A program made the position numbers and the translations under genes. DNA of 41,079 nt from an uncultured bacterium (GTDB taxonomy: Bacteria > Cyanobacteriota > Vampirovibrionia > Gastranaerophilales > Gastranaerophilaceae), in NCBI GenBank assembly GCA_902802935.1, contig CADCNZ010000111.1, forward strand, positions 1-41,079. The letters run 5' to 3'. Shown here piece after piece: positions 10,507-28,623 of the stretch; the stretch's first letter is position 1; every line of letters begins with the position of its first letter. The notes below the pieces were generated by a model. It had not been told where the DNA came from. It searched no databases and was given only the letters and a program-made list of their open reading frames with translations.

Positions 10507-10516
10507 CTCTTTCTTT

Positions 10517-11363: not shown

Positions 11364-11422
11364 CTCTCTTTTTCTTTTGTTTTGTCGAATTAGCAAATCC
11401 GACCTGCTTTTTCTTTCTTCTT

Positions 11423-11456: not shown

Positions 11457-11480
11457 ACCTCATAACGTTTTCCCCGTCTA

Positions 11481-11502: not shown

Positions 11503-11526
11503 ATTAAGGGAAATTTAATTACTCAA

Positions 11527-12192: not shown

Positions 12193-12280
12193 AGGGTAAA
12201 CCTTCCTTTCTTGATTTGTGTGTTTCACTACATTTCACCTTTTTGTATTTTACTTTTCGTTGTTACCTTTCTTTTTCTTA

Positions 12281-12322
12281 CTCCCTCGCCTTTGAGGAGG
12301 GGGACGGGGTGAGGTGATTAAC
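12281..12322 (+). repeat. REP-like palindromic element, copy 3
   Basis: CTCCCTCGCC, TTT, GAGGAGGG form an imperfect stem, followed by the family tail ACGGGGTGAGGTGATTAAC. It begins four bases after the chaperone stop (minus strand), so it sits in the chaperone to subunit A gap. Confidence 0.78.
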
Positions 12323-12325
12323 TTT

Positions 12326-13135
12326 TTATAATGTTATCGGCACCTCTTGTTTCAAATTCTGTTTTTTATCTTTTTCGTCTTTATAGTTAACAAGGACTCT
12401 TAGAGTAAGCTCGCCCTTTTCTTTAATTTTGTCTGCCGGAATCTTATCTTTGAATATATAATAGTTTTCACCGCCTATGACCTTTGCCGGAATGTTATAT
12501 TCATATACAAGTTTTTTATCTTTTACTATTTGAGCTTTTACAAAACAATTTATTTTGCTGTTACCCGTAGATTTAACTTTCATTTCTACATATTGCCCAT
12601 CTTTTTCTTTTACGGTTTTAAGGTATTCAACTTCACCATGCTTTGTAAATTTTCCTTTTGTTACATAGATAGGTATTCCCATTCTTGTTTTTACAATTAG
12701 CTGAGCACCTATTCCCGGCATTCCTGTATCCAAATTATATTCTTTTGCATTAACATCCTCTAAATACAGAACTGCTCTTGATTCACCATCAGGTAAAGAA
12801 TTCAAGTTTGCTATATTGATTCTTAGTTTTTGTACTTTTCCCGGTTGAACCGTAAATTCCGAAGGTACAAACCTTATTTTTTTAGCTATATTATGAGGAT
12901 CATCAGATTTTTCATGGTGAACCATTTTTGACTGTTCGCTTATTGTAAAATATCCTGAGTAAGCTTTGAAACGGATTGTCTGTTTTGTGTCACCTCTTAC
13001 TTCTATAGCAGTTGTTACATAATTTGATTTAATTTTATTTGCATTAATGTCAATCTTATTAGGTGCAACCGCAATAGATGCGTATGCTTGGGTAGTTATT
13101 AATAATGTTATAAGTAATCCTAAAATCTTTTTCAT
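12326..13135 (-). CDS. PapD-like periplasmic fimbrial chaperone
   Basis: This 269-aa protein has a signal peptide (cleavage after QAYA, residue 19) and the two-Ig layout of pilus chaperones. Residues 88-106 read as the F1-G1 region (VPSEFTVQPGKVQKLRI), followed by LPDGESRAVLYLED at 114-127, the equivalent of the family's conserved LP-x-E-S-x-F/Y-x-L motif. It would bind secreted subunits in the periplasm, complete their fold and deliver them to the usher. The ATG at 13135 is preferred to one ten codons earlier because GAGGAAG precedes it. It then begins one base after the upstream gene's stop. Family assignment is good; the subtype (archaic or alternative) is not certain. Confidence 0.85.
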   Translation of the reverse strand: MKKILGLLITLLITTQAYASIAVAPNKIDINANKIKSNYVTTAIEVRGDTKQTIRFKAYSGYFTISEQSKMVHHEKSDDPHNIAKKIRFVPSEFTVQPGKVQKLRINIANLNSLPDGESRAVLYLEDVNAKEYNLDTGMPGIGAQLIVKTRMGIPIYVTKGKFTKHGEVEYLKTVKEKDGQYVEMKVKSTGNSKINCFVKAQIVKDKKLVYEYNIPAKVIGGENYYIFKDKIPADKIKEKGELTLRVLVNYKDEKDKKQNLKQEVPITL

Positions 13136-13136
13136 A

Positions 13137-14003
13137 CTATCTTCCTCTATCCTCCGTGATAACAAAATCCAAATTATTTACATAGCTTCCTGCTTTCAAG
13201 ACCTTTCCGCCTTTTCCTTCAACAGAGCATTCTATTGAAACGTACTCATTATTAGCAGGAGCTTTTCCTCTTGCAATTATGATTTCTTTGCCCGGTTCTA
13301 TAAGAACTCTTTCCTGCAATCTTTGTTGAACATTTGATGATGCTGCAACCGTTCTTATATAATAATTTCCTGCTGTTTCTCCAAAATCAGTTGTATCAAG
13401 AGTTACTATCCAATCACTGTTTGAATTAATGTAAAGCATCGGATTAGTATCCGTTTTAATCTTCCCTTTTGAAAATGCATCTTCTGTACCAACACTTATC
13501 TGTGCTGTCTCTCCGTGGAACGATATGTCCTGTGTTTTTGGAATAATGAGCTGCAAATTGAATGTTGAAGTCCCGTTTACGGTTGATGTATCAGGATCAA
13601 CCGTCTGAATTTCAATATTCAAGTTGTAAACTCCGGCAGGTATCATTCCGTAGTCACGAACTTTTAAAACTACGTTCTTTGCAATTCCACCCATAATTGC
13701 GCGTCTGAAGATTGTTGAGTACTCATTGTATCTCATAAATATATCTTCTCTGTTGTTGTTGAGATATACATACTGCAATGGTATTCTAACTTCACCATCT
13801 GTACGAACAAGCGCGTCATCTAAAGGCTTAACAGCGATATCATATTCTCCCCCGTCATTACTGTTAATCAGTAAATTGCGTTCAACAAGATTAGGACGTA
13901 CAATAGTTTCTCCGTTATAGTCCATAATTACCAGCCCTGCGTCTGCTTTTAAGCACACCAGTGAGGTAAATAAAATAATTGTTGTGATAAACGCTTTTTT
14001 CAT
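13137..14003 (-). CDS. Secreted fimbrial adhesin or initiating subunit candidate
   Basis: This 288-aa exported protein (signal peptide to about residue 22, ADA/GLV) is the first gene of the fimbrial operon. The mature part is beta-rich and apparently two-domain. Strands such as IPAGVYNLNIEIQT and NLQLIIPKTQDISF occur about halfway, and the C-terminus ends KAGSYVNNLDFVITED, the kind of strand seen in chaperone-usher subunits. It is larger than subunits A and B. With its place ahead of the chaperone, this suggests a tip adhesin or a two-domain subunit, but no family is recognised with confidence. Its stop codon is one base from the chaperone start and includes that gene's ribosome site. Confidence 0.55.
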   Translation of the reverse strand: MKKAFITTIILFTSLVCLKADAGLVIMDYNGETIVRPNLVERNLLINSNDGGEYDIAVKPLDDALVRTDGEVRIPLQYVYLNNNREDIFMRYNEYSTIFRRAIMGGIAKNVVLKVRDYGMIPAGVYNLNIEIQTVDPDTSTVNGTSTFNLQLIIPKTQDISFHGETAQISVGTEDAFSKGKIKTDTNPMLYINSNSDWIVTLDTTDFGETAGNYYIRTVAASSNVQQRLQERVLIEPGKEIIIARGKAPANNEYVSIECSVEGKGGKVLKAGSYVNNLDFVITEDRGR

Positions 14004-14041
14004 GAAAAATTTTTCTTTCTATTGGGATATCCTATCCCGAT

Positions 14042-14057
14042 TGTAACAATTTGTAAC
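14042..14057 (-). promoter_or_regulatory. HLR1-type (RpaB-like) operator before the fimbrial operon
   Basis: On the minus strand GTTACAAATTGTTACA, then AT, matches the cyanobacterial RpaB consensus (G/T)TTACA(T/A)2N2(G/T)TTACA(T/A)2 exactly. The only nearby -10-like word on that strand is TAGGAT (14029-14034), which would put the box across the -35 region. In Cyanobacteria such placement usually represses. Confidence 0.6.
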
Positions 14058-14244
14058 AAAACTTCAATCCTTATTTGAAAAATCTCATACATTTGAATGA
14101 AATTGTCTCCAAAATATCATTCTTTTAATGTATATTTTTTTCAATATATTTTCGAAAAAACCTTTCTTTCTATCCTATATGCATGTTCGTACTCCATGTA
14201 TAACGGCATGTTTGGGATAAAACTTTAGAGTTTTAATTCAAAGA

Positions 14245-14260
14245 TTTACAAAATTTTACA
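14245..14260 (+). promoter_or_regulatory. HLR1-type operator before pilin C-bamA-skp
   Basis: TTTACAAAATTTTACA followed by AT is an exact match to the RpaB HLR1 consensus. Its centre is about 44 bases before the likely start set by the TACTAT -10 at 14284-14289, a position used for activation by OmpR/PhoB-type regulators. Confidence 0.6.
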
Positions 14261-14283
14261 ATTAAACCCTAAACCCTTATTAT

Positions 14284-14289
14284 TACTAT
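14284..14289 (+). promoter_or_regulatory. -10 element of the pilin C-bamA-skp operon
   Basis: TACTAT lies about 24 bases after the HLR1 box, with no recognisable -35, as expected of an activator-dependent promoter. The predicted leader is about 50 bases. Confidence 0.4.
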
Positions 14290-14348
14290 AGACTTTTGGG
14301 GAATAAAAATAACCGGCATTTCATGTACGGTTAAGAAGAGGGATAGAG

Positions 14349-14954
14349 ATGAATTTTTGCAAGAAAATATTGACCGCATTTTTTGTGCTCATCATGGGGA
14401 TTGGCGTAGCTTTTGCAGACGGGAAACAAGCCAGCGCAGACCTATCATTTTATCTTCCGTCATACACGTACATTACACCAACCACCAGCCCTGTTTTGAC
14501 AGCAAATATTACAGACAAAACCGGAAATATGCACTCACCGATGATGACAAGATTCAGGGTGATTACAAACAACGATAAGGAGCAAACACTCTATCTTAAA
14601 GCCAATGTACTCACTGAAAACGGATATGAAGAAGCTATGTTTTCTCAAGGAGGACAAGTTTATATAGCATTTACAAACTTGAGAAAACCTCCGAAATCAC
14701 AAGCACTTGCAAACTGCAAAATGGGAGCAATGCCAAATGACAGTCCCGGAGTTGTTGCCTATCCCGTAACCTCGGTAACAGGTGCTAAAAATAAATTTAT
14801 TCCGGGGAAAAACAAATACGAACTGTATATTAAAAACGGAACTACGGATGTAACTGTTAATGTCGGTTCTAATGTTCTCAAAAATTCTTTCGGAGGTAAC
14901 GACCCTAGAGGATTCTACCAAGCAGTTTTATCATTAACTGAGGCAGATATTTAA
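14349..14954 (+). CDS. Pilin-like secreted subunit C
   Basis: A 201-aa exported protein with signal peptide ending GVAFA/DGK. It is a diverged paralogue of the minus-strand subunits A and B. The mature N-terminus (ASADLSFYLPSYTYITP) parallels subunit A (AQSNLSIPVNHYVVITK), the middle strand GVVAYPVTSV parallels NVIAYPVTVQL, and the C-terminus GFYQAVLSLT parallels TYQATLTMT. It lies across the divergent control region from its paralogues and 64 bases ahead of bamA. It could be an alternative or minor fimbrial subunit sharing the same chaperone and usher. AGAGGGATAGAG precedes the ATG. Confidence 0.65.
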   Translation: MNFCKKILTAFFVLIMGIGVAFADGKQASADLSFYLPSYTYITPTTSPVLTANITDKTGNMHSPMMTRFRVITNNDKEQTLYLKANVLTENGYEEAMFSQGGQVYIAFTNLRKPPKSQALANCKMGAMPNDSPGVVAYPVTSVTGAKNKFIPGKNKYELYIKNGTTDVTVNVGSNVLKNSFGGNDPRGFYQAVLSLTEADI

Positions 14955-15018
14955 ATAATTAAAAAATGTAGATCAGATTTAATAACAAAACATAATAAAT
15001 AAGTGGAAAAATGAAGAG

Positions 15019-17334
15019 TTGAAAGTTCTAAAAGAGAAAAATCTAAAAACAATATTTGCTATTACCGCAGTTGTTGCATTCGCCGCCTGCGGAATTGCTT
15101 TTGCTGATGCAGATTTTACTTTTTATGAAATAAATCCTAACAAACAAATCAGACTTGTTAACCCCATCTATTTGGATTCCTCAAAAGTTTCTCACCCATC
15201 TTTAAAAGTCACAAATCCTTCTGAAAACGGACTTTCATCGCTAAGCACAAAATCCTCAAAAACCCAGCAGGTCAAGTTTAACGATCCTTATTCACCTATC
15301 ACAGAAACTGCACCATTTAGAATGCCTACGCCTTCTGAATATAACGCCGGAAAACAAGATGTCCGGCAAGCAGAAAATTCTATTATTCCATCTTCCAACG
15401 TAAACGCATTTGCTCCGCCGATTGAAGAAGTACAGCAAGAAATTCAAGACGAAACTCTTCCTCCTATGCCGACTTTTGTACAAATTCCTCAAGATGAAAC
15501 CCCAAAAGTCGAACAAAACAATGAATCATCTTATTTCGCTTCAGTTCAGGAAGAAGAGATTAATTACGACGGAAAAACCGTTTCAGGTATTACAATTAAA
15601 GGGCTAAATCAAGTAAGTGAAGATGCTGTTCTAAACAGGCTTTCTATAAGGAACGGTTCTAAATATAACGCGGAAAAGCTTCAGGAAGATTTGCAAAACA
15701 TATACAACATGGGGTATTTTTCCGATAATATGTCCATAACCCCGACACTTAATGACAATGACACAGTAAGCTTAGAATACACTCTACAGGAAAATATTAT
15801 CGTATCAGATGTTTCAATTAAAGGTAACACCGTATTTACAACGCACGAGCTTTTGCCAATTGTGAAACCCCTAAAAGGTCAGCCGCAAAACCTCAACAAC
15901 ATAAATGATGCCATCGAAAGGCTTAACAAATATTATGCAGACAAAGGTTACATCTTGGCAAGTGTGAAGAACGTAGATGACACAGAAGATGGTGCGCTTA
16001 TTTTTGAGATTTCTGAAGGTATTATTGATCAAATAGTATTTGAAGGGAACCATAAAACCAAGAATTACGTTATTGAGCGTAACATATTGACTCAACCCGG
16101 CACAATATATAACGAAGAATACATAAAAAAAGATATTGCAAAACTCTATTCAACCCAAATATTCAAAGAAGTCGACCGAAAAATTGAACCCAGCCCAAAC
16201 AAAGACGGTGAATACATTGTTACGGTAAAAGTTACCGAAGACTCGTCAAACAGCTTATCTATCGGAGGCGGTATCGATAACGCCCTTGGTGCATTTGGTT
16301 CAATAGGTTACAACGAGAAAAATTTCCTTGGAAAAGGTCAAAAATTCGGCATTTCAGGTCTGATAGGTTCCGGAGTATTGCTTAGTGACGCTTCAATTAA
16401 AAATCGTATGAACTACAACCTTGAAATGAACTGGATGGAACCACACTTTATGAACGAAAATACTTCCCTTGCCGCTAAACTATTCTACAGAGACTTGGGA
16501 AGCTATCAAATCCCGCTTGCAATAGAACGCAGATTCGGAATAAGTACGAGACTTGAACATAAAATTAAAGGTAACGAACATCTGACAACAAACTTTGGAA
16601 TAGGTTTCGAACATATACATCTTAGCGAAGGTGACAAAGACAAAATTGCAAATATGTACAAACGTAATAATATTAACTTTGCCAAAAGAAAGGAGCAATT
16701 GAGAGGGGGCTCATTCTTGAATATATCTCCTGGAGTTAAATACAGCACTCTCGACAATGAAGATATGCCAAGAGAAGGTTTAATTGCTAAAGCTAATTTT
16801 GTAGAAGCTCTTGGAATTGATGATATACACCACTCAAACGGACGTCTGATTGGCGGAATAACAAAATACATACCCGTTTTCAAAAAGTCTACCTTATCTA
16901 TAGGTGCAAAGGGCGGTGTTAAAGTTCATGGAAAAGAAATGCCGGAGGTTATGGCATTCAGACTCGGCGGTCCTTACTCTGTAAGAGGCTTCAAAATGAA
17001 TGGTGTCGGTACAGGTGAGCATTTTATTATGGGTAGCGCAGAATTACAAACACCTATACCATTCTTTGACCGATTCAAATACGATATTCTTAAGAACATG
17101 AGATTTGCCTTCTTTGTTGATGCCGGCAAAGTATTTGACCCGACAGTTTCAAGTAAATTATATGACAGACCGCTTAGTGCTATATCCGGAGGTATCGGTC
17201 TAAGAATTTATATACCTAATATCGGTCCGATATCTATTGACTACGGTATACCGATTACAAATCCTGGACACTATGGCAAGAGAAGCGGACAATTCACGTT
17301 TGGTACAAGCGGTTATTACGACAGTTATTACTAA
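15019..17334 (+). CDS. bamA: Omp85-family outer-membrane assembly protein BamA
   Basis: This 771-aa protein has a signal peptide (cleavage near residue 29), then a long Pro/Ser/Gln-rich region to about 180. Three POTRA domains follow (about 187-258, 260-336 and 337-407), then a 16-strand-type barrel (412-771). The hallmark VRGF lies in GGPYSVRGF near residue 657, and the C-terminal strand is aromatic. It inserts beta-barrel proteins into the outer membrane. E. coli BamA has five POTRAs; three POTRAs plus a proline-rich N-terminal extension is the cyanobacterial layout. The start is TTG at 15019, the only in-frame candidate that keeps the signal peptide. skp follows 30 bases downstream, as in many bacteria. 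Confidence 0.92.
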   Translation: MKVLKEKNLKTIFAITAVVAFAACGIAFADADFTFYEINPNKQIRLVNPIYLDSSKVSHPSLKVTNPSENGLSSLSTKSSKTQQVKFNDPYSPITETAPFRMPTPSEYNAGKQDVRQAENSIIPSSNVNAFAPPIEEVQQEIQDETLPPMPTFVQIPQDETPKVEQNNESSYFASVQEEEINYDGKTVSGITIKGLNQVSEDAVLNRLSIRNGSKYNAEKLQEDLQNIYNMGYFSDNMSITPTLNDNDTVSLEYTLQENIIVSDVSIKGNTVFTTHELLPIVKPLKGQPQNLNNINDAIERLNKYYADKGYILASVKNVDDTEDGALIFEISEGIIDQIVFEGNHKTKNYVIERNILTQPGTIYNEEYIKKDIAKLYSTQIFKEVDRKIEPSPNKDGEYIVTVKVTEDSSNSLSIGGGIDNALGAFGSIGYNEKNFLGKGQKFGISGLIGSGVLLSDASIKNRMNYNLEMNWMEPHFMNENTSLAAKLFYRDLGSYQIPLAIERRFGISTRLEHKIKGNEHLTTNFGIGFEHIHLSEGDKDKIANMYKRNNINFAKRKEQLRGGSFLNISPGVKYSTLDNEDMPREGLIAKANFVEALGIDDIHHSNGRLIGGITKYIPVFKKSTLSIGAKGGVKVHGKEMPEVMAFRLGGPYSVRGFKMNGVGTGEHFIMGSAELQTPIPFFDRFKYDILKNMRFAFFVDAGKVFDPTVSSKLYDRPLSAISGGIGLRIYIPNIGPISIDYGIPITNPGHYGKRSGQFTFGTSGYYDSYY

Positions 17335-17364
17335 AATTAAGAATTAAAAAAGGAGAATGGTAAA

Positions 17365-17820
17365 TTGAAAATTATTATTAAATCTGTATTGTCTTTATTT
17401 GCTATATTCATAATGCTTCCCTCTTTTGCAGGCGGGGTAGGCTATATTGACTATCAAAAAGTCTTTGAAAACTATCAATATGCAAAAACTGCTATGCGAG
17501 AAATTCAAACAAAAGAAACTGAAATCAAAAAATATCTTGATGCTAAAGAAGCTGAATTTGATAAACTTGAAACGCCTATTCAGAAAAAGAAATTTCAAGC
17601 AACTGTTCAAGCAGAAATGAAAACCAAAGAAGCTGCATTTAATGATTTTAGGGAAAAACGGGAAGAAGCTGTTTATCAAAGAATACACGCTGTCTCGGAA
17701 AAAATTCGTCTTGAAAAAGGTCTTGATGCCATTCTTGATGCAAGAAGTGTTTTTTCCGGAGGAGTTGATATCACAGATACTCTTATAAAAACTCTCAATA
17801 GCGGAAGTGCAGCAAAATAA
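17365..17820 (+). CDS. skp: OmpH/Skp-like periplasmic chaperone
   Basis: The 151-aa protein has a signal peptide (to about residue 22), then GVGYIDYQKVFENY, the characteristic OmpH/Skp opening (VGYVDxQKVF). A Lys/Glu-rich helical arm of about 80 residues follows, and a C-terminal segment that would complete the trimeric body. Skp holds unfolded outer-membrane proteins for delivery to BamA, encoded directly upstream. The start is TTG with AGGAG nine bases before it; the ATG in between is closed by a stop after two codons. Length fits the family (about 150-170 aa). Confidence 0.88.
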   Translation: MKIIIKSVLSLFAIFIMLPSFAGGVGYIDYQKVFENYQYAKTAMREIQTKETEIKKYLDAKEAEFDKLETPIQKKKFQATVQAEMKTKEAAFNDFREKREEAVYQRIHAVSEKIRLEKGLDAILDARSVFSGGVDITDTLIKTLNSGSAAK

Positions 17821-17913
17821 AATTCATTAAATATTGTTAAAATTTGAGACTAAATATTTTCCTTTTGAACAATTTTAGATGTATAATCGTATAGAGATTA
17901 TAAGGATTTTATT

Positions 17914-18195
17914 ATGGGTATTGGAATTTCTGTACTGGTTGTTTTTATAGTATTGGCTGTTATTTTGAAAAATATTATAAGTTTTGGAATTAAGCTTACT
18001 GCGTTTGTTATACTTGCAGCAGCACTGGCTGTAACTATTTGGGTTTGTTCGGCACAACCTGATATGCATAAACCTTTTTCTATAAACACAATCGAATATC
18101 TTTTCAAGATAAATAAAGACGGCTCGTTGACTACTACAAAACAAATTACACAGACAGTAACTAAAAAAGATAGCGAGGGAAACAATCATGACTAA
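17914..18195 (+). CDS. Small inner-membrane protein, 93 aa
   Basis: Two hydrophobic segments (about 4-21 and 26-46) are followed by a hydrophilic tail with polar Thr/Lys-rich residues, so it is probably an inner-membrane protein. No family is recognised. AAGGA precedes the ATG by seven bases, and TATAAT stands at 17882-17887. It overlaps the start of the next gene by eight bases, so the two are likely translated together. It begins the run of envelope genes that extends to 23632. Confidence 0.6.
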   Translation: MGIGISVLVVFIVLAVILKNIISFGIKLTAFVILAAALAVTIWVCSAQPDMHKPFSINTIEYLFKINKDGSLTTTKQITQTVTKKDSEGNNHD

Positions 18196-19225
18196 TTTTA
18201 AAAGACTAATCGCATTCTTGCTATTATTATTTTTCTCGTCTGCAAATTCCGCTTTTGCATTCAGTGAGCTTTATTACCTTAAAAACGTGCAGACATCAGA
18301 AATTCAACCGATTGTTGATAATTACTATTCTACATACGGATTTAATATAATTAAAAGAAATCCGTATTACGGCGTAGCACAAACCGGTAATGACTACGCT
18401 GTAGTTGTTTTACAGCAAAGCGGCAACAATATGTTTTATTACTACCAATCAGAAAATAATACAAAAATTAATAAAGCTATACTTAAAGAAATCAAACGAC
18501 GCGATATAATTTGTGAACAATCTTTTAACACAAATATTATTAGTATTTACGACAATATCGCAAACGAAACCGTAATGACATCAGGCGCAGTAAAACAATA
18601 TTCATTTGAAGAACCGGAATCAATATTTACACCGCCTGCTCAAACACAACAAATACAGCAGCAAAATACACTAAGAGGAGGCGTCGTTCAGCTTGCTGCA
18701 GGAACTAAACTGCAAACTTATCTGCAAAACGCTATAAATACTGCAACAGCTGTTAAAGGAGACAAAGTTATAGCGGTCTTGCAGCAGAATTTAACATATA
18801 ATGGTATAACCGTTGCACCGCAAGGAAGTATTGTAGAAGGGACCCTTTCAAAAGCAAGAAACGCGACATACGGTTCAAGGAATGGTAGAGTTGTTATCTC
18901 GTTTAACAAAATAATTACACCTGAAAATAAAGTATACAATATTTCTGCAGAAGAAATAGATTTTACTGTTTCAAACGACGGAAAGTTAAAGGAATCTATA
19001 AAAAGTGCAGCTACAAGTGCTGCCGTTGGTGCAATAGCAGGATTGTTATTTGCTCTGATAACAGATAAAAATGTTGGAAGCTCTATGGCAGTTGGTGCAG
19101 GTGTTGGCGCAGGAACATCTGCGGTTGTTTCTACTGCAGAACGAGGTGTTGATGCAGAGATTCCGTCCTTTACGGAATTAGAATTGACATTAACTAAACC
19201 TCTCAGCATATCAGTCAGCTACTAA
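18188..19225 (+). CDS. Exported protein with VirB10/TrbI-like C-terminal region
   Basis: The 345-aa protein has a signal peptide (to about 25, SAFA/FSE), a unique N-terminal domain and a Gln/Pro-rich linker (about 147-160). Its C-terminal region resembles the VirB10/TrbI beta-barrel domain of type IV secretion: LAAGTKLQTYL, then GDKVIAVLQQNL, then PQGSIVEGTLSKA, then GRVVISFNKIITPE. A Gly/Ala-rich hydrophobic hairpin (SAAVGAIAGLLFAL … SMAVGAGVGAGTSAVV, about 277-317) resembles the antenna-like membrane helices of that fold. No other T4SS genes are nearby, so a role in conjugation is unlikely. It may form a periplasmic or outer-membrane ring in an unknown envelope structure. The resemblance is by motif only. 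Confidence 0.5.
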   Translation: MTNFKRLIAFLLLLFFSSANSAFAFSELYYLKNVQTSEIQPIVDNYYSTYGFNIIKRNPYYGVAQTGNDYAVVVLQQSGNNMFYYYQSENNTKINKAILKEIKRRDIICEQSFNTNIISIYDNIANETVMTSGAVKQYSFEEPESIFTPPAQTQQIQQQNTLRGGVVQLAAGTKLQTYLQNAINTATAVKGDKVIAVLQQNLTYNGITVAPQGSIVEGTLSKARNATYGSRNGRVVISFNKIITPENKVYNISAEEIDFTVSNDGKLKESIKSAATSAAVGAIAGLLFALITDKNVGSSMAVGAGVGAGTSAVVSTAERGVDAEIPSFTELELTLTKPLSISVSY

Positions 19226-19263
19226 CTTTCAAGAATAAACATAAATACCAAAAAGGAAACATT

Positions 19264-19932
19264 ATGAATAAGAGATTAATTACAGTTGGATTATTAATTT
19301 TAAGCATTGCTATTATCGGCAAACTGCTTTTCTTTGCAGCAAAAAATATCAAAGTTGACGAATTTCATAAGGCTGCAATAATATTTGCGGTAGATTCTTC
19401 TGCTTCAAACCAAAAGAATTTGCCTGACCAAATCAAATACTTAAAATCTCTTTGTGCAATACTTGACCCTGAGGATGAAATTAAAATTCTCAAAGTTTCC
19501 CAAGATTCATATCTAATATATGAAGGCTCTCCAGGAAATTCAAAAGGAATTACAAAAGCTGTAGAAGCATTTACGCAATATAATTCAAAAGACTACGGAA
19601 CCGCATACGGATTAGCTATTAAAAAAGCTTTTGAACATTGTCTTACGATGAAAAAGGAAGGGTATGTTCCTGCTGTTGTCATAATTGGAGACCTCGAAAA
19701 CGAAGGCGCAATTGAAAAACAAATTAATTGGGATACTTTGCCTGAAAATGTTAAAAAGGTTCAAGAATACATACCTGAAATTTCTATGATGTTCGTATAT
19801 GCACATCCTGAAAAACTTGATATGGTAAAAACAAAGCTTAACCCTGTTTTGGGTGAAAAGAAGTTAATCGTTGCAAACGAAACAAACGTAGACAAAGCGA
19901 ACAGAAGATTTCTTGAGGCAATCGGCAGATAG
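19264..19932 (+). CDS. Membrane-anchored von Willebrand factor A-like protein
   Basis: The 222-aa protein has one N-terminal membrane helix (about 6-26) followed by a vWA-type fold. FAVDSSAS at 41-48 gives the MIDAS motif DxSxS (Asp44, Ser46, Ser48), and VVIIGDLENEG about 100 residues later supplies the strand with the third metal-binding aspartate. The domain probably faces the periplasm. vWA domains bind a metal and dock partner proteins. Its neighbours suggest it is part of a multiprotein envelope complex. The two middle MIDAS residues are not certain. AAGGA precedes the ATG. Confidence 0.68.
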   Translation: MNKRLITVGLLILSIAIIGKLLFFAAKNIKVDEFHKAAIIFAVDSSASNQKNLPDQIKYLKSLCAILDPEDEIKILKVSQDSYLIYEGSPGNSKGITKAVEAFTQYNSKDYGTAYGLAIKKAFEHCLTMKKEGYVPAVVIIGDLENEGAIEKQINWDTLPENVKKVQEYIPEISMMFVYAHPEKLDMVKTKLNPVLGEKKLIVANETNVDKANRRFLEAIGR

Positions 19933-19963
19933 GAGTAAAGGGGGTAAAGGGGTAAAGGGCAAA
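19932..19963 (+). repeat. Short tandem G-run repeat
   Basis: Three to four units of an 8-9 base repeat (GGAGTAAA, GGGGGTAAA, GGGGTAAA, GGGC) begin in the stop codon of the vWA gene. The G-runs spaced by TAAA could nearly form a quadruplex on the plus strand. Confidence 0.55.
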
Positions 19964-20058
19964 AAAATAACTTCCGGATATTACTTTATCCACCCTTTCT
20001 TTCTACGGTGATAAGATTTAATTAAAAGTCAAAATAAATAATTTAAAAAGGAGCAATA

Positions 20059-21654
20059 ATGGCATTTACAATAGTTACAAAATACGGAGAAAAAACTTTT
20101 GCAGACAAAGAGCTCGTGAATATAAGTTCTAAAGCAGGTGCTGATGTTCAAATGAGTATTGGATTTGATTTTCTTTTAACAGTTCAATATGACATTAGGA
20201 CAAATAAATGCGTTCTTTTGAATCAATTTAACAACCAGAGATTTTTATTCAAAGGAAGACCAATCCCTGCAAGGCTTGATATTGAAAAAGTTTGTAAAGT
20301 TATGGTAGACGGAAGTGATGATTTTATAACAATAAAAGTTATTGGAGAATCTTCAACCATAAACATTTCGGAAGAAAATATTTCTGAAGCAGAAATGCAG
20401 GCCATTTATGGCAATGAAGTAAATGCTGCTGCTAAAATTATGGTAGAAAAACGTAAAGCCGAAATCGAAAATGCACGTGTCGGAATAATAAAAGAAGTCG
20501 GCGCGAGAATAAACGATTTAAAACGTAAAATTTCTATGAATTCTAAAGGCGGGATAATGCTCCATATAGCAATGTTTGTTGCGTCTTTTATCTGTGCTTT
20601 CGGTGTATCAAACTACCTGACAGGACTTCCGCTGGAAGAAGCAGGAAGCGTAATTCAAATGCCTACAAATATGAAACTTATTTTCATATACGCACTCATA
20701 ATATATGGAGTTGGCTTGATTCTTAAACAAGGTATATTCTTATTTTTACAGAACAAGCTGGGAGAAGGTAACGTTACAACTCAACTTGCCGAAAAATTTA
20801 TGATTGTTCTTTCTCTTGTGTTTTATGCGGCAATATATTTAATTAACGTTCTCTATTACATTTCACCAAAAACATTCCCTGTATTTGCTGTTTTGATATC
20901 ACTTTTCTTTGTAGGAACAACCGCAACTCTTGCTCTTGCTTGCGGTTATTACAAAAACGCAAGTGTAGAGACAAAGCAAGAACTCGATGAAATTGAATAC
21001 AGAGAAGATTTTGAACACGTTATTAAAGAATATCAACAATGGATTGAAAGATATGCAAATACTTTGAGCAAAACGAAGATTAATAATATAAAAGACAAGC
21101 TATTCGGACTTCAAATTAAATCTTTGGGAGAAATGCTATTAGGATTAATTACAGCTCCTTTCTTGGCTTATGGCGTTTCTAATACTCTTGCAAGCTGCTT
21201 CCCTGAAGCTGCAGGGTGGGTGAGAATTTCAGGATTAAGATTAAGCCCTGTATTTTTGGCACTTGCTACTTTCTTAATCATTTTTGCTTTCTTTAACTTT
21301 GTTAACGGATTTTTATGCAGCAAAAAAATTCAAGCTTCAAACGTACTGAAGCAAGATGGTTTCAGTAATTATTTGCAGCATGGGGTAGAAATATACGGAC
21401 TTGAAGGTATTAAAAAACTTGACCGTGAAATGCGACGTTCTTTCATAATTGGTATTGCTATAATAGGTATTGAGTTTTCAATGAACGTATCTTACTTTAT
21501 GCAAGAAATCGGCGGCGATTTGAGCGGTATGCTTTTGAGTGCTGTTGCAGCACTTGTTCCTACGGCACTGTTAATTGCTGAAACATATATGTTAAGTCAG
21601 ACAAAATTTGAAACATTTGCCTGCGAAGAAACAGTCGCCAAAATCGGAGGCTAG
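20059..21654 (+). CDS. Polytopic membrane protein with FHA-like N-terminus and internal duplication
   Basis: This 531-aa protein starts with a beta-rich soluble domain (1-100) resembling an FHA-like fold: LVNISSKAGADVQMS, LLNQ…FLFKGRPI, VDGSDDFITIKV. A charged helix follows (105-160), then eight predicted membrane segments. The membrane part is an internal duplication: 180-196 AFGVSNYLTGLPLEEAG and 370-386 AYGVSNTLASCFPEAAG align, and four helices follow each unit start (about 165-300 and 357-515). A cytoplasmic coiled segment (300-355) joins the units. No family is recognised. It may be a scaffold or channel in the 17914-23632 gene group. GGAG precedes the ATG. Confidence 0.6.
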   Translation: MAFTIVTKYGEKTFADKELVNISSKAGADVQMSIGFDFLLTVQYDIRTNKCVLLNQFNNQRFLFKGRPIPARLDIEKVCKVMVDGSDDFITIKVIGESSTINISEENISEAEMQAIYGNEVNAAAKIMVEKRKAEIENARVGIIKEVGARINDLKRKISMNSKGGIMLHIAMFVASFICAFGVSNYLTGLPLEEAGSVIQMPTNMKLIFIYALIIYGVGLILKQGIFLFLQNKLGEGNVTTQLAEKFMIVLSLVFYAAIYLINVLYYISPKTFPVFAVLISLFFVGTTATLALACGYYKNASVETKQELDEIEYREDFEHVIKEYQQWIERYANTLSKTKINNIKDKLFGLQIKSLGEMLLGLITAPFLAYGVSNTLASCFPEAAGWVRISGLRLSPVFLALATFLIIFAFFNFVNGFLCSKKIQASNVLKQDGFSNYLQHGVEIYGLEGIKKLDREMRRSFIIGIAIIGIEFSMNVSYFMQEIGGDLSGMLLSAVAALVPTALLIAETYMLSQTKFETFACEETVAKIGG

Positions 21655-21710
21655 GGTAAAAGACTCAACGCCGCAACTTCTTAAAAACTTAATTTTATAA
21701 TCGATAAATA

Positions 21711-22517
21711 ATGAAACTAATTTTACAAATTCTTTTAATACTTATTGTTGTTTCTACTGCGGTAATTTGCACCGCAAAACCTAAACTGCACAAAACAGTC
21801 ATGGTTTATGATTCCGCGTATACTATTGTTAAAGAAAATGACATAAAAGTTGAAACAGAAACAATTCCTGTAATGGAGATGCCTGTAAAACAGGAGCAAA
21901 GAGTCCAAAAAGTTGAACAAGTTATTCAAAAACCGGCAAAAACATCAAAACAAATACAACAAACCAAAGTTTCAACTCAAACCACTCCTCAAAAAACCAA
22001 AGTAAATACTGTTAAGGTTCAAACTCCTAAAGCAGAAACTGTCGTAAAGCAAACACAATCTTCAAAACCACAAACTCAAACAACTAAGGTTCAAACACAA
22101 AAAGTTGAAATTCCGATTGCAAAACAAACCGTCAAACAGGAGCAGCCGAAAGTTTTAACCCAGCAAGAAGAAACTATAGCTTGGAATATTTGGCGCTCAA
22201 ATCTGCAAAACCAAATTATGCAAGATGTAAAACTACCGCTGCTTCCAAATGGTATAATTTTCAGATTTTCATTTACTGTTGATAAATTCGGAAAAATTTC
22301 AAATCTTCAAACTTGGTCTGATGTTTCTTCTTACACACCTTATGCTATCCAATATATTGCACCTGTCATAAGAAGTTATCAGGGACGTTCGATACTTAAT
22401 TTTCCAACAGGCACAGCTCGAACAATAACCGACGTTAAAGGCGGCTGGAAAATTTCCGATAATGCAAGATACAGCAGCCCTCAGGATTATAATGATATAG
22501 AAAAGGTTGTAAAATAA
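21711..22517 (+). CDS. TonB-like energy-transducer protein
   Basis: The 268-aa protein has an N-terminal membrane anchor (about 3-20), a long Gln/Lys/Thr/Val-rich linker (about 50-150) able to span the periplasm, and a compact C-terminal domain (about 160-255). In that domain IWRSNLQNQIMQDVKLP and FSFTVDKFGKISNLQTW recall the TonB/TolA C-terminal fold (helix, then strands with a vD.dGkI.n turn). TonB and TolA couple inner-membrane proton-motive force to outer-membrane work, but no ExbBD or TolQR partner is encoded in this window. Its stop overlaps the next start (TAATG), so the two transducer-like genes are coupled. No strong ribosome site precedes its ATG. Confidence 0.62.
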   Translation: MKLILQILLILIVVSTAVICTAKPKLHKTVMVYDSAYTIVKENDIKVETETIPVMEMPVKQEQRVQKVEQVIQKPAKTSKQIQQTKVSTQTTPQKTKVNTVKVQTPKAETVVKQTQSSKPQTQTTKVQTQKVEIPIAKQTVKQEQPKVLTQQEETIAWNIWRSNLQNQIMQDVKLPLLPNGIIFRFSFTVDKFGKISNLQTWSDVSSYTPYAIQYIAPVIRSYQGRSILNFPTGTARTITDVKGGWKISDNARYSSPQDYNDIEKVVK

Positions 22518-23632
22518 TGTATAAATGTAGTGAATGCGGATGTGAATATGATATTAAACCGGAATTTTGTGATTGCGGAAATGATACTTTTGAAAAAATC
22601 GAAACAACTGACAAAATACCCGTTCAAGAGACACAATCTGATATAAAAACTATAAAACCTGTGAAACTTGAGGTAAAACATCAAGAAAAATTTCCGAATA
22701 TTCAAAAAAAATCCTTTACTGAACAATACCCCGGTTTTTCAAGATTTGTAAGCTCTATTGATCCGATTTCCGGCAGCATTTTTGGTATCTGCATATTATT
22801 ATCTTTTATAGTTATTTTCTTTTTGTGGAATGTTGATGAAAATAATATCACCTCGCCCCAGCCCTCTCCTCAAGGCAAGGGAGCGATTTCCCATAATATT
22901 CCTTCTATAGATAAAATATGGAATAGCACACCGCCTGCACCTCTTAAAGAAGAAACAAAACAAGAAGATAACATTAAACCTGCACCAATAGTTCAACAAG
23001 TTGTTAAGCAAATTGTTCCGGCGCAAAAACCTAAAATTAATACAACAAAAAAACAGACAAAACAAGTAACTAAAACTGTAACTAAACCAAGTGCAAAAAA
23101 AACACAGGTTAATAATTCTTCTGCAGCATACAAACAGAAAACAAATATATCTGCTCCTAAACAAATAACACAACAAAAAACAACAATTACAAACCCTGCT
23201 CAAAAACAAACTCAAAATAATACAACTGTTCAAACTCAACCAACGCAGACAAAACCTCAAACCGGTATAACAACTGTAACATTACAGAAAAATCCGGCAG
23301 TATCAACGATTGAACAAGTAAATAATACTGCTCTAAAACAAGAACTTAACAATTATAAAGTATCTCTAAGAAATACTATAGGAAGGAAAATTGATTTTAC
23401 AAAAGTTATCGGTGACGGAAACTGCACAGTTGCTTTTAAGATTGATTCAAGCGGAAAATTGATAAATCGTTCGTTTACAAAACAATCATCAAATATAACC
23501 CTAAATGATGCGGTTTATGCTGCTGTTATGTCAACCCCCAGATATAACGCGCCGCCTGCACTATACAAAAATGAAACTTTAAATCTGAATATAAAATTCT
23601 ATAACGGAAATTTTGAGATTACACTAAAATAA
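22517..23632 (+). CDS. Zinc-ribbon, single-helix, TolA/TonB-like protein
   Basis: The 371-aa protein combines an N-terminal zinc-ribbon-like knuckle (Cys4, 7, 9, 18, 20), a cytoplasmic segment and one membrane helix (about 84-104). A long Gln/Thr/Lys/Pro-rich linker (about 140-270) follows. The C-terminal TolA/TonB-like domain (about 280-371) includes VAFKIDSSGKLINRSF, the typical strand-turn-strand, and NDAVYAAVMSTPRYNAPP. The linker is interrupted just after the helix by a translated REP-like element (residues about 112-123, TSPQPSPQGKGA). The zinc ribbon on the cytoplasmic side is unusual for a TonB-type protein and may bind a partner. It is co-translated with the preceding TonB-like gene. 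Confidence 0.6.
   Translation: MYKCSECGCEYDIKPEFCDCGNDTFEKIETTDKIPVQETQSDIKTIKPVKLEVKHQEKFPNIQKKSFTEQYPGFSRFVSSIDPISGSIFGICILLSFIVIFFLWNVDENNITSPQPSPQGKGAISHNIPSIDKIWNSTPPAPLKEETKQEDNIKPAPIVQQVVKQIVPAQKPKINTTKKQTKQVTKTVTKPSAKKTQVNNSSAAYKQKTNISAPKQITQQKTTITNPAQKQTQNNTTVQTQPTQTKPQTGITTVTLQKNPAVSTIEQVNNTALKQELNNYKVSLRNTIGRKIDFTKVIGDGNCTVAFKIDSSGKLINRSFTKQSSNITLNDAVYAAVMSTPRYNAPPALYKNETLNLNIKFYNGNFEITLK
22848..22886 (-). repeat. REP-like element inside a coding sequence, copy 4
   Basis: Read on the minus strand, this has the same order as copies 1-3: CTCCC, TTG, then CCTTGAGGAGAGGG and CTGGGGCGAGGTGA. It lies in frame in the zinc-ribbon TolA-like gene, encoding part of its periplasmic linker. 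Confidence 0.75.
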
Positions 23633-23688
23633 TTTATTATTTAACGCAGATAGCCAATATACCACTAAATATATAAATGACCAATTTG

Positions 23689-23710
23689 CGTTTTGTAAAG
23701 TTTTGTTAAG
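23689..23710 (-). promoter_or_regulatory. Degenerate HLR1-like direct repeat
   Basis: On the minus strand TTAACAAAACTTTACA differs from HLR1 at one position. On the plus strand it is two 10-base repeats (TTTTGTAAAG, TTTTGTTAAG). The 22-base block recurs at 35510-35531 with one mismatch, again upstream of a lineage-type gene. Confidence 0.45.
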
Positions 23711-23789
23711 ACAAACATGCTGAAATAGGCAATTTTACATGGTTTCAGAACTTTATATATTTAAGAGTACAAAAGCGAGGATAAAAATT

Positions 23790-25844
23790 ATGTTCGGATT
23801 GCCAAGCGGATGGCTATTTTCAGGAATGAACTACGATATGAGCAGCGACTCATTATCAAGTTCTTTAAATATCCAATATAATTTAGGACTGGCGAAAGCT
23901 GATCTTTTCCCAGGATTATGGTCTTACCCTGCACTTGATTCTATGTCTTGTGTAACTTATCCTAATATGCTTGATAATAATAACATATTATTGAATCCTA
24001 TGCTTGCTGTACAGCAATGGAACCAACAAAGACAGAACGGCGGCGGAATTTTTAATTTCGGAGGCGGTTCAAACGGTTATGGTAATTTTGGTTTCGGAGA
24101 CAGCTTTAATAATACAGGATTCTTCGGACAAAACGGCGGTATTGATGGCAGCAATAACAACGGCAATATTTTTGGCGGTGTTTTTGGCGGTAACAATACC
24201 GGTGTAAATAATGGCGGCAATACAGGACTTTCTAACGAACAAAAAGAATTAAACAAACTTAAAAACGTATTTGAAAGTTTGAAAAAACAAGGCTTAAGCG
24301 AAGAAGTTATAAACAAATATAATGAAGCATTAAAAAATAAAACAAATGCCGAAAAAGTTAGTGCTTTAAAAGATTTGTTAAAAGAAGTTCTTGAAGATGA
24401 AAGCAATGCAGAAAATATTAAAAATGCAATTTATTCAGACAAAGATATTAAAGAAAAACTTATCAACTTAGGTTATAAATTCCCTGATAATGATATTTTC
24501 AAGGCAGAAAATGACAATGATAAAACAATTAAAAAAGATATGAAAGATTTAAAATCTGCTATAGACAGCGATAACACTAATAATTTGCAATCGCTTGCAG
24601 GTAAAATACAAAAAAATCAGGAACAAATTCTAAGATATGTATCAGCATGGAACAAATCTAATATTAAAGATAATTCTTGCAAGTCAATGATTGAAGTTGT
24701 TGCAGAAAAAGGAGCTTCCAAATCCGCAACGGAGCAAGAACCATACAAAGGATTTGTCAAAATAGTTTCTGATGCTTTAATTTCAAAAGCAAATAAATAT
24801 GATGATTCTTATGCTGAAATAGCTAAAAAGGTTGAAACTTTGAGCAAAGCTCTTGAACCATTCAACAAAGCTAATGCAAAAGTAACAAAATCCCAATTTA
24901 ACGATGCAGCAAATGCTTTCCAAGAATTATATGCACTTGTAAGAATAACCGAAGCACAAGAACTTGATAAAGAAATCAATGAAAAATTCGGGTTCTTAAA
25001 CGAATATAAAGAAGGAATCGTTGGCTCTGGTATTATAACAAAATCTGTAAAAGCAGAGCTCTCACAAGAAAAAGTAGATATCCCGACAAATATTGACGAT
25101 GTTGACGGCAAAGAAGATGGCAAAAAAACAATAGAAGAACAGGCTAAGGAATTAGGTGCTGAATTTAAATACACTGCAAATGGTGTAAAAGTCTACAGTA
25201 ACTCAAAGACCGGTAAATGGTACGTTGTTGATAATGACGAACTCAAATATGTTGGTGATGGTAAATACGTAAACAAAGACGGAAATATATGTTCTAAAAA
25301 AACTTCAGAAACAGAACAATCTGTAACTGATTTCTTGCAAAATGACAAAACTGATAATAAAAAGCAAAAAGATAATACATCAAAATTAACAGATGCTGAA
25401 AAAGACGCTGAGCAAAAAGCACAAGATGTATATGATAAATTGTGGGGTCATACTAGCGTTACTGAAGGAGAAGAAGTCCAACAAATTATTGAAGATTTGG
25501 AAACAGATGATATTTACAGATTCATGAATAAATATATTGAGCTTGATGGTTCAGGTTCAAAAAATAGAAACGGCGGACTTTGTGACCAAATAGATAATGA
25601 AGGTGACTGGTCATTATTAAAAACTCATTTCAAAAAAGATGTTGCTGCAGATGTGATATTAACATTGGTTACCAAAGTTCTTAAATGGGCTGAAGACAAT
25701 GGTTTGACTGATGATTTGGGTTACAAGAGACTCAGCAAATATAAAGAAGATGATGAAACTGGTGAAATTCTCAGAAAAAATGCAGAAAATGTTGATTATT
25801 ACATATACAGATTGATAGATAAATATAAAAACATTAAAGATTAA
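23790..25844 (+). CDS. Large hypothetical protein with Gly/Asn-rich segment
   Basis: The 684-aa protein is of no family I recognise. The ATG at 23790 (MFGLPSGWLF) is chosen because GAGGA lies about eight bases upstream; the frame opens 17 codons earlier without a ribosome site. Residues 1-75 are Ser/Asn/Leu-rich, and 78-146 form a Gly/Asn/Phe low-complexity block (for example GGVFGGNNTGVNNGG). The rest is charged, Lys/Asp/Glu-rich and mainly helical, with no signal peptide or membrane helix. It might be surface-associated or exported by a non-Sec route, but nothing proves that. It is monocistronic: an HLR1-like box upstream and an intrinsic terminator 70 bases downstream. Confidence 0.65.
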   Translation: MFGLPSGWLFSGMNYDMSSDSLSSSLNIQYNLGLAKADLFPGLWSYPALDSMSCVTYPNMLDNNNILLNPMLAVQQWNQQRQNGGGIFNFGGGSNGYGNFGFGDSFNNTGFFGQNGGIDGSNNNGNIFGGVFGGNNTGVNNGGNTGLSNEQKELNKLKNVFESLKKQGLSEEVINKYNEALKNKTNAEKVSALKDLLKEVLEDESNAENIKNAIYSDKDIKEKLINLGYKFPDNDIFKAENDNDKTIKKDMKDLKSAIDSDNTNNLQSLAGKIQKNQEQILRYVSAWNKSNIKDNSCKSMIEVVAEKGASKSATEQEPYKGFVKIVSDALISKANKYDDSYAEIAKKVETLSKALEPFNKANAKVTKSQFNDAANAFQELYALVRITEAQELDKEINEKFGFLNEYKEGIVGSGIITKSVKAELSQEKVDIPTNIDDVDGKEDGKKTIEEQAKELGAEFKYTANGVKVYSNSKTGKWYVVDNDELKYVGDGKYVNKDGNICSKKTSETEQSVTDFLQNDKTDNKKQKDNTSKLTDAEKDAEQKAQDVYDKLWGHTSVTEGEEVQQIIEDLETDDIYRFMNKYIELDGSGSKNRNGGLCDQIDNEGDWSLLKTHFKKDVAADVILTLVTKVLKWAEDNGLTDDLGYKRLSKYKEDDETGEILRKNAENVDYYIYRLIDKYKNIKD

Positions 25845-25916
25845 ACCCAATAATGTAATAAAAAAGTAAACTTGAAAATATAACATATAGATGTAAGATT
25901 GGTATTAAACAAAGAC

Positions 25917-25940
25917 AGCCGCAGAAACCTGCGGCTTTTT
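25917..25940 (+). terminator. Intrinsic terminator
   Basis: AGCCGCAG, an AAAC loop and CTGCGGCT run directly into TTTT. This strong GC-rich stem ends the gene at 23790-25844. Confidence 0.92.
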
Positions 25941-25985
25941 ATTAACTCAATTAACACTATTTTACAATATATTTTCGATATACTA

Positions 25986-26013
25986 TTGAGATAATTTCAT
26001 TGTATGATATAAT
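25986..26013 (+). promoter_or_regulatory. Promoter of the ribbon-helix-helix gene
   Basis: TTGAGA (25986-25991), a 16-base spacer and TATAAT (26008-26013), with a TG one base upstream of the -10 (extended -10). The predicted leader is about 13 bases and contains the GGAGGG ribosome site. Confidence 0.7.
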
Positions 26014-26032
26014 ATTATTGTACGGAGGGAAT

Positions 26033-26221
26033 ATGGCAAGAGTATTAATTTCAATGTCTAACGACTTTCTTAACAGAGTAGATTCTTTAGCAACTTCTGA
26101 ACAAAGAACCAGAAGTGAACTAATTAGAGAAGCTCTGCGTGTATATATAAAACGTAACAGAATTTCTAACAATCTGAAGGCAGAAGAAAACGCTGCTCTT
26201 CTTTCTGAACTATTAGGTTAG
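26033..26221 (+). CDS. Ribbon-helix-helix (CopG/MetJ-type) regulator
   Basis: This 62-aa protein starts with the beta strand MARVLISMSNDFLNRVD, followed by two helices with SEQRTRSELIREALRVYIKRN, the ribbon-helix-helix DNA-binding pattern. It should act as a dimer, with the strand entering the major groove. The ATG at 26033 has GGAGGG immediately upstream; an earlier ATG at 26000 would overlap the promoter. CopG-like proteins are often antitoxins, but no partner toxin gene is adjacent, and the gene has its own promoter and a terminator-like hairpin. It is likely a standalone or autoregulated transcription factor. Confidence 0.8.
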   Translation: MARVLISMSNDFLNRVDSLATSEQRTRSELIREALRVYIKRNRISNNLKAEENAALLSELLG

Positions 26222-26246
26222 AAATATAATATTTTTGCAAAATAAA

Positions 26247-26276
26247 AACTGACCTTTTGGTCAGTTATAAGTTTTT
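26247..26276 (+). terminator. Probable terminator of the ribbon-helix-helix gene
   Basis: AACTGACC, a TTTT loop and GGTCAGTT form an 8-bp stem, followed after ATAAG by TTTTT. The T-run is slightly displaced, so efficiency is uncertain. Confidence 0.65.
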
Positions 26277-26367
26277 CTCAAATAATTTTGGGAGGAGATT
26301 TGGGGATAGTTGATACATGGCATGCTACAACAAATTTTTAAGTCATGATACATGCCCTTCAAAAAAA

Positions 26368-26383
26368 TTTACAAAAATTTACA
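26368..26383 (+). promoter_or_regulatory. HLR1-type operator upstream of the TPR gene
   Basis: TTTACAAAAATTTACA followed by AT matches the RpaB consensus exactly. TTGACA follows at 26386-26391, but no good -10 stands at the right distance. The rest of 26277-26496 shows no gene. A GGGAGGAGAT run at 26290-26299 resembles a ribosome site but has no suitable start. Confidence 0.55.
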
Positions 26384-26496
26384 ATTTGACATCTTATTTA
26401 TGCTTATTCGCCTTATTTTTTCACCTTTTATTAATCACTTAACCACTGCCTTACAAACTTATTTCTTTTCCGTCAACGTTGTAGTAATATATTGAT

Positions 26497-28623
26497 ATGA
26501 ATAAAAAAATATTAGGGACAGTTTGTTGTTTAGCCGTTTGCACAAGCTTGCTTGGAAATCCTGCTTTTGCTGCAGGCAGCGGAGCTTTTGCCGAACACTA
26601 TAATGCTGCTCAAAATTATTTGATGCAAAACCAATTTTCTTCTGCAATTGCAGAATTTAAAAAATCTCTTCGCATAAACTATATGGATAATTCTGCAAGG
26701 ATTGGTCTTACAAATTCATATCTTGCAAGGGCTGCGTATTACGCAAATCAAGAAAAAAATTATGACAAAGCTGCAAATGATTTTAGAAGCGCCTTATTTT
26801 ATCTGAAAATGTATCCTACAAGCGAACAAGATATTCAAAATTCGATAGGAATGATATCGTCTGCAACAACAAATCTTGGACAGTGCCTAAAAGTTACTGG
26901 AGCTGACACATCAGCAGGAGCAAGATTTAAAAAAGCTGAAGAGTTGCGTGCAATAGGGGAATTTCCTGCTGCCGCTTACGAATTTTACAAAGCAAGCGAA
27001 AATGATAAATTTGCATCTAACGCAAATTCGCAAATAGCTGACTTGATGAAAATTTTAGGTAATGATAGCCGCTCAGCTCATTTTTACAAGCTCGCTCTTG
27101 AACAGAATCCGAATGACGGTGCTTTACGCATGAAATACGCGAGAACACTTGATAAAATTGGCGAATACGATACCGCCGTTAAAGCTTACAATGATGCCCT
27201 TGCAAATTCAAAAGGCGATCTGGAGATTTTATACGGTTTAGAAAGAATTTATTTAAAAAAACTTGCACAAAACCCAAGTGATGCTGAACTAAATGCAAAT
27301 ATTGGCGCAATAAAACAAGCTCAAGGCGATTTTGAATCAGCACTTAGTTATTATGGTAAAGCAGAACAGCTTAATCCCGAGAATATAACTACAAGAATTA
27401 ACGTTGGCACATTATATCAAGCAAAGAAACAATATACAAAAGCCATTCAAGCATATGATTCAGTGTTAACAATACATCCAGATAATACGGATGCAATGTT
27501 TTATAAAGCTCAGGCACTTTCAGAAATGGGTGACAAACAAAATGCTCTAAGCATATACAAAAAAGTTGCAGCAATGAACCCTTCTAACAAGGAAGTTAAA
27601 AACGCAATTATTGACATTATGAAAGATACAATGTCACCTTCTGAATATATCTCATATTTGGCTCAAAACGGAACGGCAAATGATCTATATGATTTTGGGT
27701 ATAAACTTCATAAAGAAAATAAAATAGATGAAGCCATTCAAGCTTACAAATCATCAATAGAAAAAGACAGTTCTAAAGCAGATGCTTATGTAAATATGGC
27801 TATATGCTACGCCGCACAAGATGATTATAAAAATGCATCTAACATATTAAACATAGCAAAAAATAAATTTCCGACAAATAATCTTGTACTGAAAACATTA
27901 AAAGAAGTAGAACAGGATGCCGTATCAACAAAGCTTGCATCAGCTTCCTCAAGCTATGACAACAAAGATTACAGAAAAGCTTTACAAGAGTATTTGAGCA
28001 TAAATCCTCCGACAGAGAATTCAATGCTCGGAGCAGCTGCCTCATATCAAGCTCTTGAAGATTATCAAAATGCAATTACTTATTACAAAAAAGCTGAGTC
28101 ATTAAACCCTAAAAATGCAGAGATACCGTATTATATAGGTTATTTGTATTCGGAACAGAAAGACTGGTCGAATGCGGAAACATATCTTAAGAAAGCTGTT
28201 TCTTTAAATCCTCAATCAGAAGCAAAAAGTCTACTTTCTTATGTGTCACAAAACGGAACACTTGGCATACTTAATGAAGGGATAGATTTATTTGAAAAAC
28301 AAGATTACAAAAATGCACTGCTTAAACTCAACGAAGTAATAAAGAAAGAAGCTAATAATGCTTATGCACATTACTACAGAGGAATGATTTATGACGAACA
28401 AAAACAAACAAAGCTTGCAATTGCTGACTACTTGAATGTTGTCAAAAATTCTTCTGATTTTCCTATTGTAAACTACTTGCTCGCAGTAGATTATGATACA
28501 AATTCAAACTACAAAGATGCATTCAAATACTACAAAATATTTACCGAAAAATATTCAACTGATGATGAATATCTAAAATATGCCAAATCCAGAATGGAAG
28601 AGTTGAAATCATATGCAGGCTAA
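26497..28623 (+). CDS. Exported tetratricopeptide-repeat protein
   Basis: The 708-aa protein has a signal peptide (cleavage near NPAFA/AGS, residue 25). TPR units run almost the whole length, seen in repeats such as FESALSYYGKAEQLNPENI, YTKAIQAYDSVLTIHPDNT and YQNAITYYKKAESLNPKNA. TPR arrays are protein-binding scaffolds. Sec export implies the periplasm or the cell surface, possibly organising outer-membrane or envelope complexes. The ATG lacks a clear ribosome site. An HLR1-type box lies about 115 bases upstream. Its last 11 bases overlap the dus gene, so the two are probably co-transcribed although functionally unrelated. Confidence 0.82.
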   Translation: MNKKILGTVCCLAVCTSLLGNPAFAAGSGAFAEHYNAAQNYLMQNQFSSAIAEFKKSLRINYMDNSARIGLTNSYLARAAYYANQEKNYDKAANDFRSALFYLKMYPTSEQDIQNSIGMISSATTNLGQCLKVTGADTSAGARFKKAEELRAIGEFPAAAYEFYKASENDKFASNANSQIADLMKILGNDSRSAHFYKLALEQNPNDGALRMKYARTLDKIGEYDTAVKAYNDALANSKGDLEILYGLERIYLKKLAQNPSDAELNANIGAIKQAQGDFESALSYYGKAEQLNPENITTRINVGTLYQAKKQYTKAIQAYDSVLTIHPDNTDAMFYKAQALSEMGDKQNALSIYKKVAAMNPSNKEVKNAIIDIMKDTMSPSEYISYLAQNGTANDLYDFGYKLHKENKIDEAIQAYKSSIEKDSSKADAYVNMAICYAAQDDYKNASNILNIAKNKFPTNNLVLKTLKEVEQDAVSTKLASASSSYDNKDYRKALQEYLSINPPTENSMLGAAASYQALEDYQNAITYYKKAESLNPKNAEIPYYIGYLYSEQKDWSNAETYLKKAVSLNPQSEAKSLLSYVSQNGTLGILNEGIDLFEKQDYKNALLKLNEVIKKEANNAYAHYYRGMIYDEQKQTKLAIADYLNVVKNSSDFPIVNYLLAVDYDTNSNYKDAFKYYKIFTEKYSTDDEYLKYAKSRMEELKSYAG

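Follow-up and report, generated by a model that had tools for sequence, protein, structure and literature searches.

A probable global RpaB–HLR1 regulon in the nonphotosynthetic Gastranaerophilales, with three operator sites before genes for secreted proteins

RpaB is essential in the cyanobacteria in which it has been studied and is regarded as a light/redox regulator. Here, exact copies of its operator, HLR1, stand before genes for secreted proteins in a gut bacterium. The stretch of DNA analyzed here (the window) comprises the 41,079 nucleotides of contig CADCNZ010000111.1 (C111), part of a Gastranaerophilales/Melainabacteria metagenome-assembled genome of 1.79 Mb in 223 contigs that is 91% complete. 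The lineage is described as lacking photosynthesis (PMC3787301). The published HLR1 consensus is 5′-KTTACAWW-N2-KTTACAWW-3′ (PMC13421787), and we used it as an 18-bp pattern with a 10-bp repeat period. Scanning of the whole window revealed three exact matches and no others:

14040–14057, minus strand: exact HLR1 match GTTACAAATTGTTACAAT, with the start codon of the minus-strand gene 13137–14003 36 bp downstream
14245–14262, plus strand: exact HLR1 match TTTACAAAATTTTACAAT, with the start codon of gene 14349–14954 86 bp downstream
26368–26385, plus strand: exact HLR1 match TTTACAAAAATTTACAAT, with the TPR protein 26497–28623 starting 111 bp downstream

Each of these sites matches all 16 informative positions of the consensus, bearing out the initial annotation, which had placed the sites correctly and had given them 16-bp extents that omit the final two W bases of each. 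The promoter location proposed for them also holds, as all three are intergenic and lie 36, 86, and 111 bp before start codons. The number of matches expected in the window has a mean of 0.02 by dinucleotide shuffling, close to the earlier chance estimate of about 0.03, and none of 100 shuffles yielded three. In addition, TTACA..TTACA direct repeats in the window peak only at period 10 (three copies), with two or fewer at other periods up to 29.

The first two sites form a divergent pair, and the genes that adjoin the three sites are as follows:

13137–14003, minus strand: target gene 1, a secreted 288-aa protein of unknown family that heads the minus-strand cluster
7435–13165, minus strand: the rest of the putative operon after target gene 1
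12326–13165, minus strand: chaperone-like protein, assigned by eye
11527–12228, minus strand: pilin-like protein, assigned by eye
10734–11396, minus strand: pilin-like protein, assigned by eye
7435–10506, minus strand: large surface/usher-like protein of 1023 aa, assigned by eye
14349–14954, plus strand: target gene 2, a secreted 201-aa protein
15019–17334, plus strand: BamA/Omp85 outer-membrane assembly protein with POTRA and Omp85 domains, downstream of 14349–14954 in the same direction
17365–17820, plus strand: OmpH/Skp-like periplasmic chaperone
26497–28623, plus strand: target gene 3, a secreted TPR-repeat protein of 708 aa

The product of target gene 2 is a distant relative (30% identity) of the pilin-like protein at 10752–11351. 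The proteins of the minus-strand cluster gave no match to a Pfam family of chaperone, usher, or pilin type, and the chaperone-like protein gave none in the PDB. Taken as a whole, the arrangement of 7435–14003 (minus) and 14349–14954 (plus) resembles a chaperone-usher-type surface fibre locus, in which the pilin-like 14349 gene lies before bamA.

The enrichment between genes, on which the initial annotation had made its reading depend, is evident throughout the source genome. There, 55 exact HLR1 matches compare with 2 for the reversed-pattern control, and 48 of the 55 are intergenic by a simple ORF caller, in contrast to a coding fraction of 92% in the window. Of the remaining seven, several lie within some 10–16 bp of where a called ORF begins and may reflect a misplaced start codon. 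The sites are mostly no more than about 100 bp from a start codon, their GTTACA form is frequent, and among the first 100 TTACA..TTACA pairs listed for this genome the commonest period is 10 (17 pairs, the next commonest having 10). Congeners likewise harbor 42–69 exact matches compared with 1–3 for the reversed pattern, and one phylum-wide search returned 42–51 in each of four congeners. An unbiased sample of 0.75 Mb, taken from 80 other Gastranaerophilales contigs that had been chosen for an unrelated gene, contained seven exact HLR1 sites, all seven intergenic, and no reversed match. The intergenic TTACA repeats of this sample number 13 at period 10, and no other period has more than 3.

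The window sites are themselves found in other genomes. Of 15 promoters of 14349 orthologues, our own among them, 8 contain an exact HLR1 and none the exact reversed control. Both exact sites of the divergent 14040/14245 pair occur in the same arrangement in five congeners (L309, L311, L314, L318, and L320), in which the downstream protein is 55–65% identical. The orthologue of the 13137–14003 gene in genome G146 has an HLR1 too. For the TPR promoter, 6 of 30 sequences including our own (5 of 29 congeners) carry the exact site and none carries the reversed control. The window sites are thus conserved and not universal, with turnover evident. Over the whole genome, 18 of 61 targets match G146 targets, compared with 5 of 175 nontarget genes, an overlap that stems in part from paralogous families. 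The A+T-rich composition of the genome (34% G+C in the window) would favor an origin of the sites as chance matches, an explanation that is refuted by the excess over the reversed pattern, the low expectation for the window, the intergenic confinement, and the cross-species footprint, and to which we give practically no credence. We hold with very high confidence that the sites are functional operators.

A different reading, which takes the repeats for −35-like hexamers of promoters in tandem (TTTACA resembling TTGACA) and not for a regulator's operator, draws on the site at 14245–14262. There, the second half-site (TTTACA) is a possible −35 hexamer, 17 nt from TATTAT at 14278–14283, and this combination (14255–14283) scores 10 of 12 as a sigma-70 promoter. 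Tandem hexamers do not account for a period of exactly 10 bp only, or for the frequency of the GTTACA form. Moreover, both orientations are common, with 26 sites in the same direction as their single target genes and 41 in the opposite direction, and no −10 element phased downstream of HLR1 was found, the peak at +12 being the motif itself (TACAAT). We therefore regard tandem promoter hexamers as very improbable.

If the repeats are operators, which protein binds them? RpaB was called with the equivalog model NF045944 at its curated cut-off of 330 bits, which is exceeded in 29 of 37 congeners (351–357 bits) and passed in most family members; among 14 control genomes, 1 lies above the cut-off and 12 have weaker matches. 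The DNA-binding domain of Gastranaerophilales RpaB is 74–76% identical to that of a cyanobacterial RpaB. Cyanobacterial proteins and those of the congeners also have the recognition helix DTRVVDVHISRLR[AS]KLE in common. In a tree, the Gastranaerophilales proteins group beside cyanobacterial RpaB, with the placement of the long branches L188_1982, L191, L189, and L185 unsure. The initial annotation had rested its case on an RpaB orthologue in the genome. The lineage supplies one, and the 91%-complete assembly does not: no rpaB was found in it, a result that formally counts against the proposal as worded. This absence is probably an assembly gap, because a contig ends within prmC, the usual upstream neighbor of rpaB: in 11 congeners, rpaB immediately follows prmC, and our prmC (L367; 2818–3004) extends for 60 residues before contig C207, 3004 bases long, runs out. 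rpaB is also missing from eight other congener assemblies, one of them rated 99% complete, and its neighborhood is not conserved across the family. Several congener assemblies likewise break near rpaB. Autoregulation through HLR1 is not general, as a site was found at only 1 of 39 rpaB loci (L166).

Direct repeats are often bound by OmpR-family members, which favors the possibility that the operators are real and are read by another protein of that family, such as the type at L031, which lies next to its own kinase, or the RpaA-like L032. These two are the sole OmpR-type regulators in our assembly, and the L031 type is conserved across the Gastranaerophilales. However, their recognition helices, DVRMLRVHVGGLR and NVETIRVHIRHLR, are unlike that of RpaB and do not have the DTRVVDVHISRLR[AS]KLE form, and their DNA-binding domains are 29–30% identical to that of cyanobacterial RpaB, far from the value for Gastranaerophilales RpaB. 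Congeners that do bear RpaB, moreover, have the same sites before orthologous genes. Another OmpR-family binder is thus unlikely in our judgment, and the sequence comparisons lead us to predict with high confidence that RpaB is the protein that binds the HLR1 sites. As a separate observation, the L031-type regulator (L031:1036–1746; also L256), a third OmpR-type protein encoded beside its histidine kinase, scores nearly equally as a relative of MtrA and as a relative of RpaB.

The candidate partner kinase, L255, contains HAMP, PAS, HisKA, and HATPase domains. Its best family is NblS (331.6 bits) and its second WalK (299.7 bits); the NblS score is far under the curated cut-off of 1000 for the equivalog NF045911, and from its sequence we class L255 as NblS-like only. 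From the computed sites, their enrichment, spacing, intergenic placement, and conservation, together with the RpaB orthology of the congeners and this kinase, we infer that the nonphotosynthetic Gastranaerophilales very probably possess a global RpaB–HLR1 regulon, shared with photosynthetic cyanobacteria, and that the window sites are operators of it. The NblS-like membrane histidine kinase would phosphorylate RpaB, which would also be present in this strain, and RpaB dimers would bind both TTACA half-sites at their 10-bp spacing. In cyanobacteria, phosphorylated RpaB activates from upstream of the promoter and represses when over it (PMC13421787). By analogy, the sign of regulation here would follow from site position relative to the transcription start, for which we took −66 to −45 as activating and −38 to +23 as repressing. 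In the window, RpaB would control the divergent surface-fibre/outer-membrane units 7435–14003 and 14349–17820 and the secreted TPR protein. Light is an unlikely input signal in a gut anaerobe.

Genome-wide, the roughly 55 sites would place flagellins, division, replication, translation, glycolysis, and many lineage-specific proteins under RpaB. The genes adjacent to HLR1, some of which are ambiguous as targets owing to divergent promoters, include those for flagellins, ftsZ, dnaN, dnaB, rpsF, rnpA, gpmI, and gpsA, as well as a PfkB-type kinase, a lactate/malate dehydrogenase, ComEC-like, MlaD, AsmA, and LysM proteins, and a family-5 solute-binding protein; many others encode lineage-specific proteins with no Pfam match. 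By a crude measure, Sec-type hydrophobic N-termini are not enriched among the nearest targets (5 of 45, compared with 24% of background genes). The envelope control put forward in the initial annotation therefore suits the window promoters and is too narrow for the genome, given such broad targets and hydrophobic N-termini rarer than in the background. Among the targets, L004, L010, L011, L194, and L196 have a common N-terminus like MGMSASQARLLSLTxRxxDxEYxAQ and fall outside all Pfam families; searched as a regular expression among 694 background genes from other members of the Gastranaerophilales, this N-terminus had no match. A target motif of F-[KRQGS]-[GAS] at the N-terminus is not claimed, as its stricter form was clearly significant in one congener only and weak elsewhere.

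How far does the HLR1 code extend beyond these genomes? In 80 other genomes of the family, the median is 18.5 exact sites compared with a control median of 2 (1638 versus 235 in sum). In 43 genomes that were grouped, by kinship, genome size, and RpaB score, as resembling photosynthetic cyanobacteria, it is 8 compared with 1 (383 versus 42 in sum). The median is 0.5 in families f3, f5, f9, f12, f13, f16, and f19. Within the same class, a looser HLR1 pattern is enriched in f37, f41, and f42 and not in f2, f36, f38, and f39. Family f2 has an RpaB above the cut-off yet shows no HLR1 enrichment; thus, RpaB is not always a sign of HLR1, and the case suggests a small regulon or a binding code that has diverged. 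Photosynthetic and nonphotosynthetic clades have both RpaB and HLR1 enrichment in common, which makes the ancestral operator envisaged in the initial annotation plausible. More tentatively, and with rather more doubt than confidence, RpaB–NblS may have begun before oxygenic photosynthesis as a WalRK-like global regulator of growth, surface, and motility with the HLR1 code already fixed, cyanobacteria later rewiring the operator to light/redox genes. A large HLR1 regulon in the nonphotosynthetic sister lineage makes a pre-photosynthesis role of RpaB testable. It is also a first candidate global regulon for the uncultured gut Gastranaerophilales, and if one protein reading one DNA code serves different physiology, it would clearly exemplify a conserved operator with rewired targets.

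Homologues of RpaA, RpaB, and NblS in Melainabacteria have been known since 2013–2014 (PMC3787301, PMC4040986; also PMC5877343), and these papers suggest a different or older function for them. In the open-access literature searched, we found no description of an HLR1 operator or regulon in Gastranaerophilales. The HLR1 sites and the target set are a new addition that extends the known RpaB–HLR1 system. Among related systems, WalR–WalK (YycF–YycG) of Firmicutes includes WalK, the second-best family of the NblS-like kinase. The direct repeats that WalR recognizes have a TGTAA core and an 11-bp period, and the genes it controls are those of wall and division. Here, by contrast, an 11-bp period shows no enrichment (2 intergenic repeats, compared with 13 at period 10), and the regulator is RpaB by the curated model, not YycF. 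Likeness to cyanobacterial NblS/Hik33–RpaB–HLR1 extends to the same 18-bp consensus, the same RpaB recognition helix, an NblS-like kinase in which HAMP and PAS domains occur, and a large regulon, which in Synechocystis covers at least 137 promoters (PMC13139465). The difference lies in the targets: the light and photosystem genes of the cyanobacterial regulon are inapplicable here, and in the Gastranaerophilales the sites stand instead before genes for flagellins, surface proteins, division, replication, translation, glycolysis, and unknown proteins.
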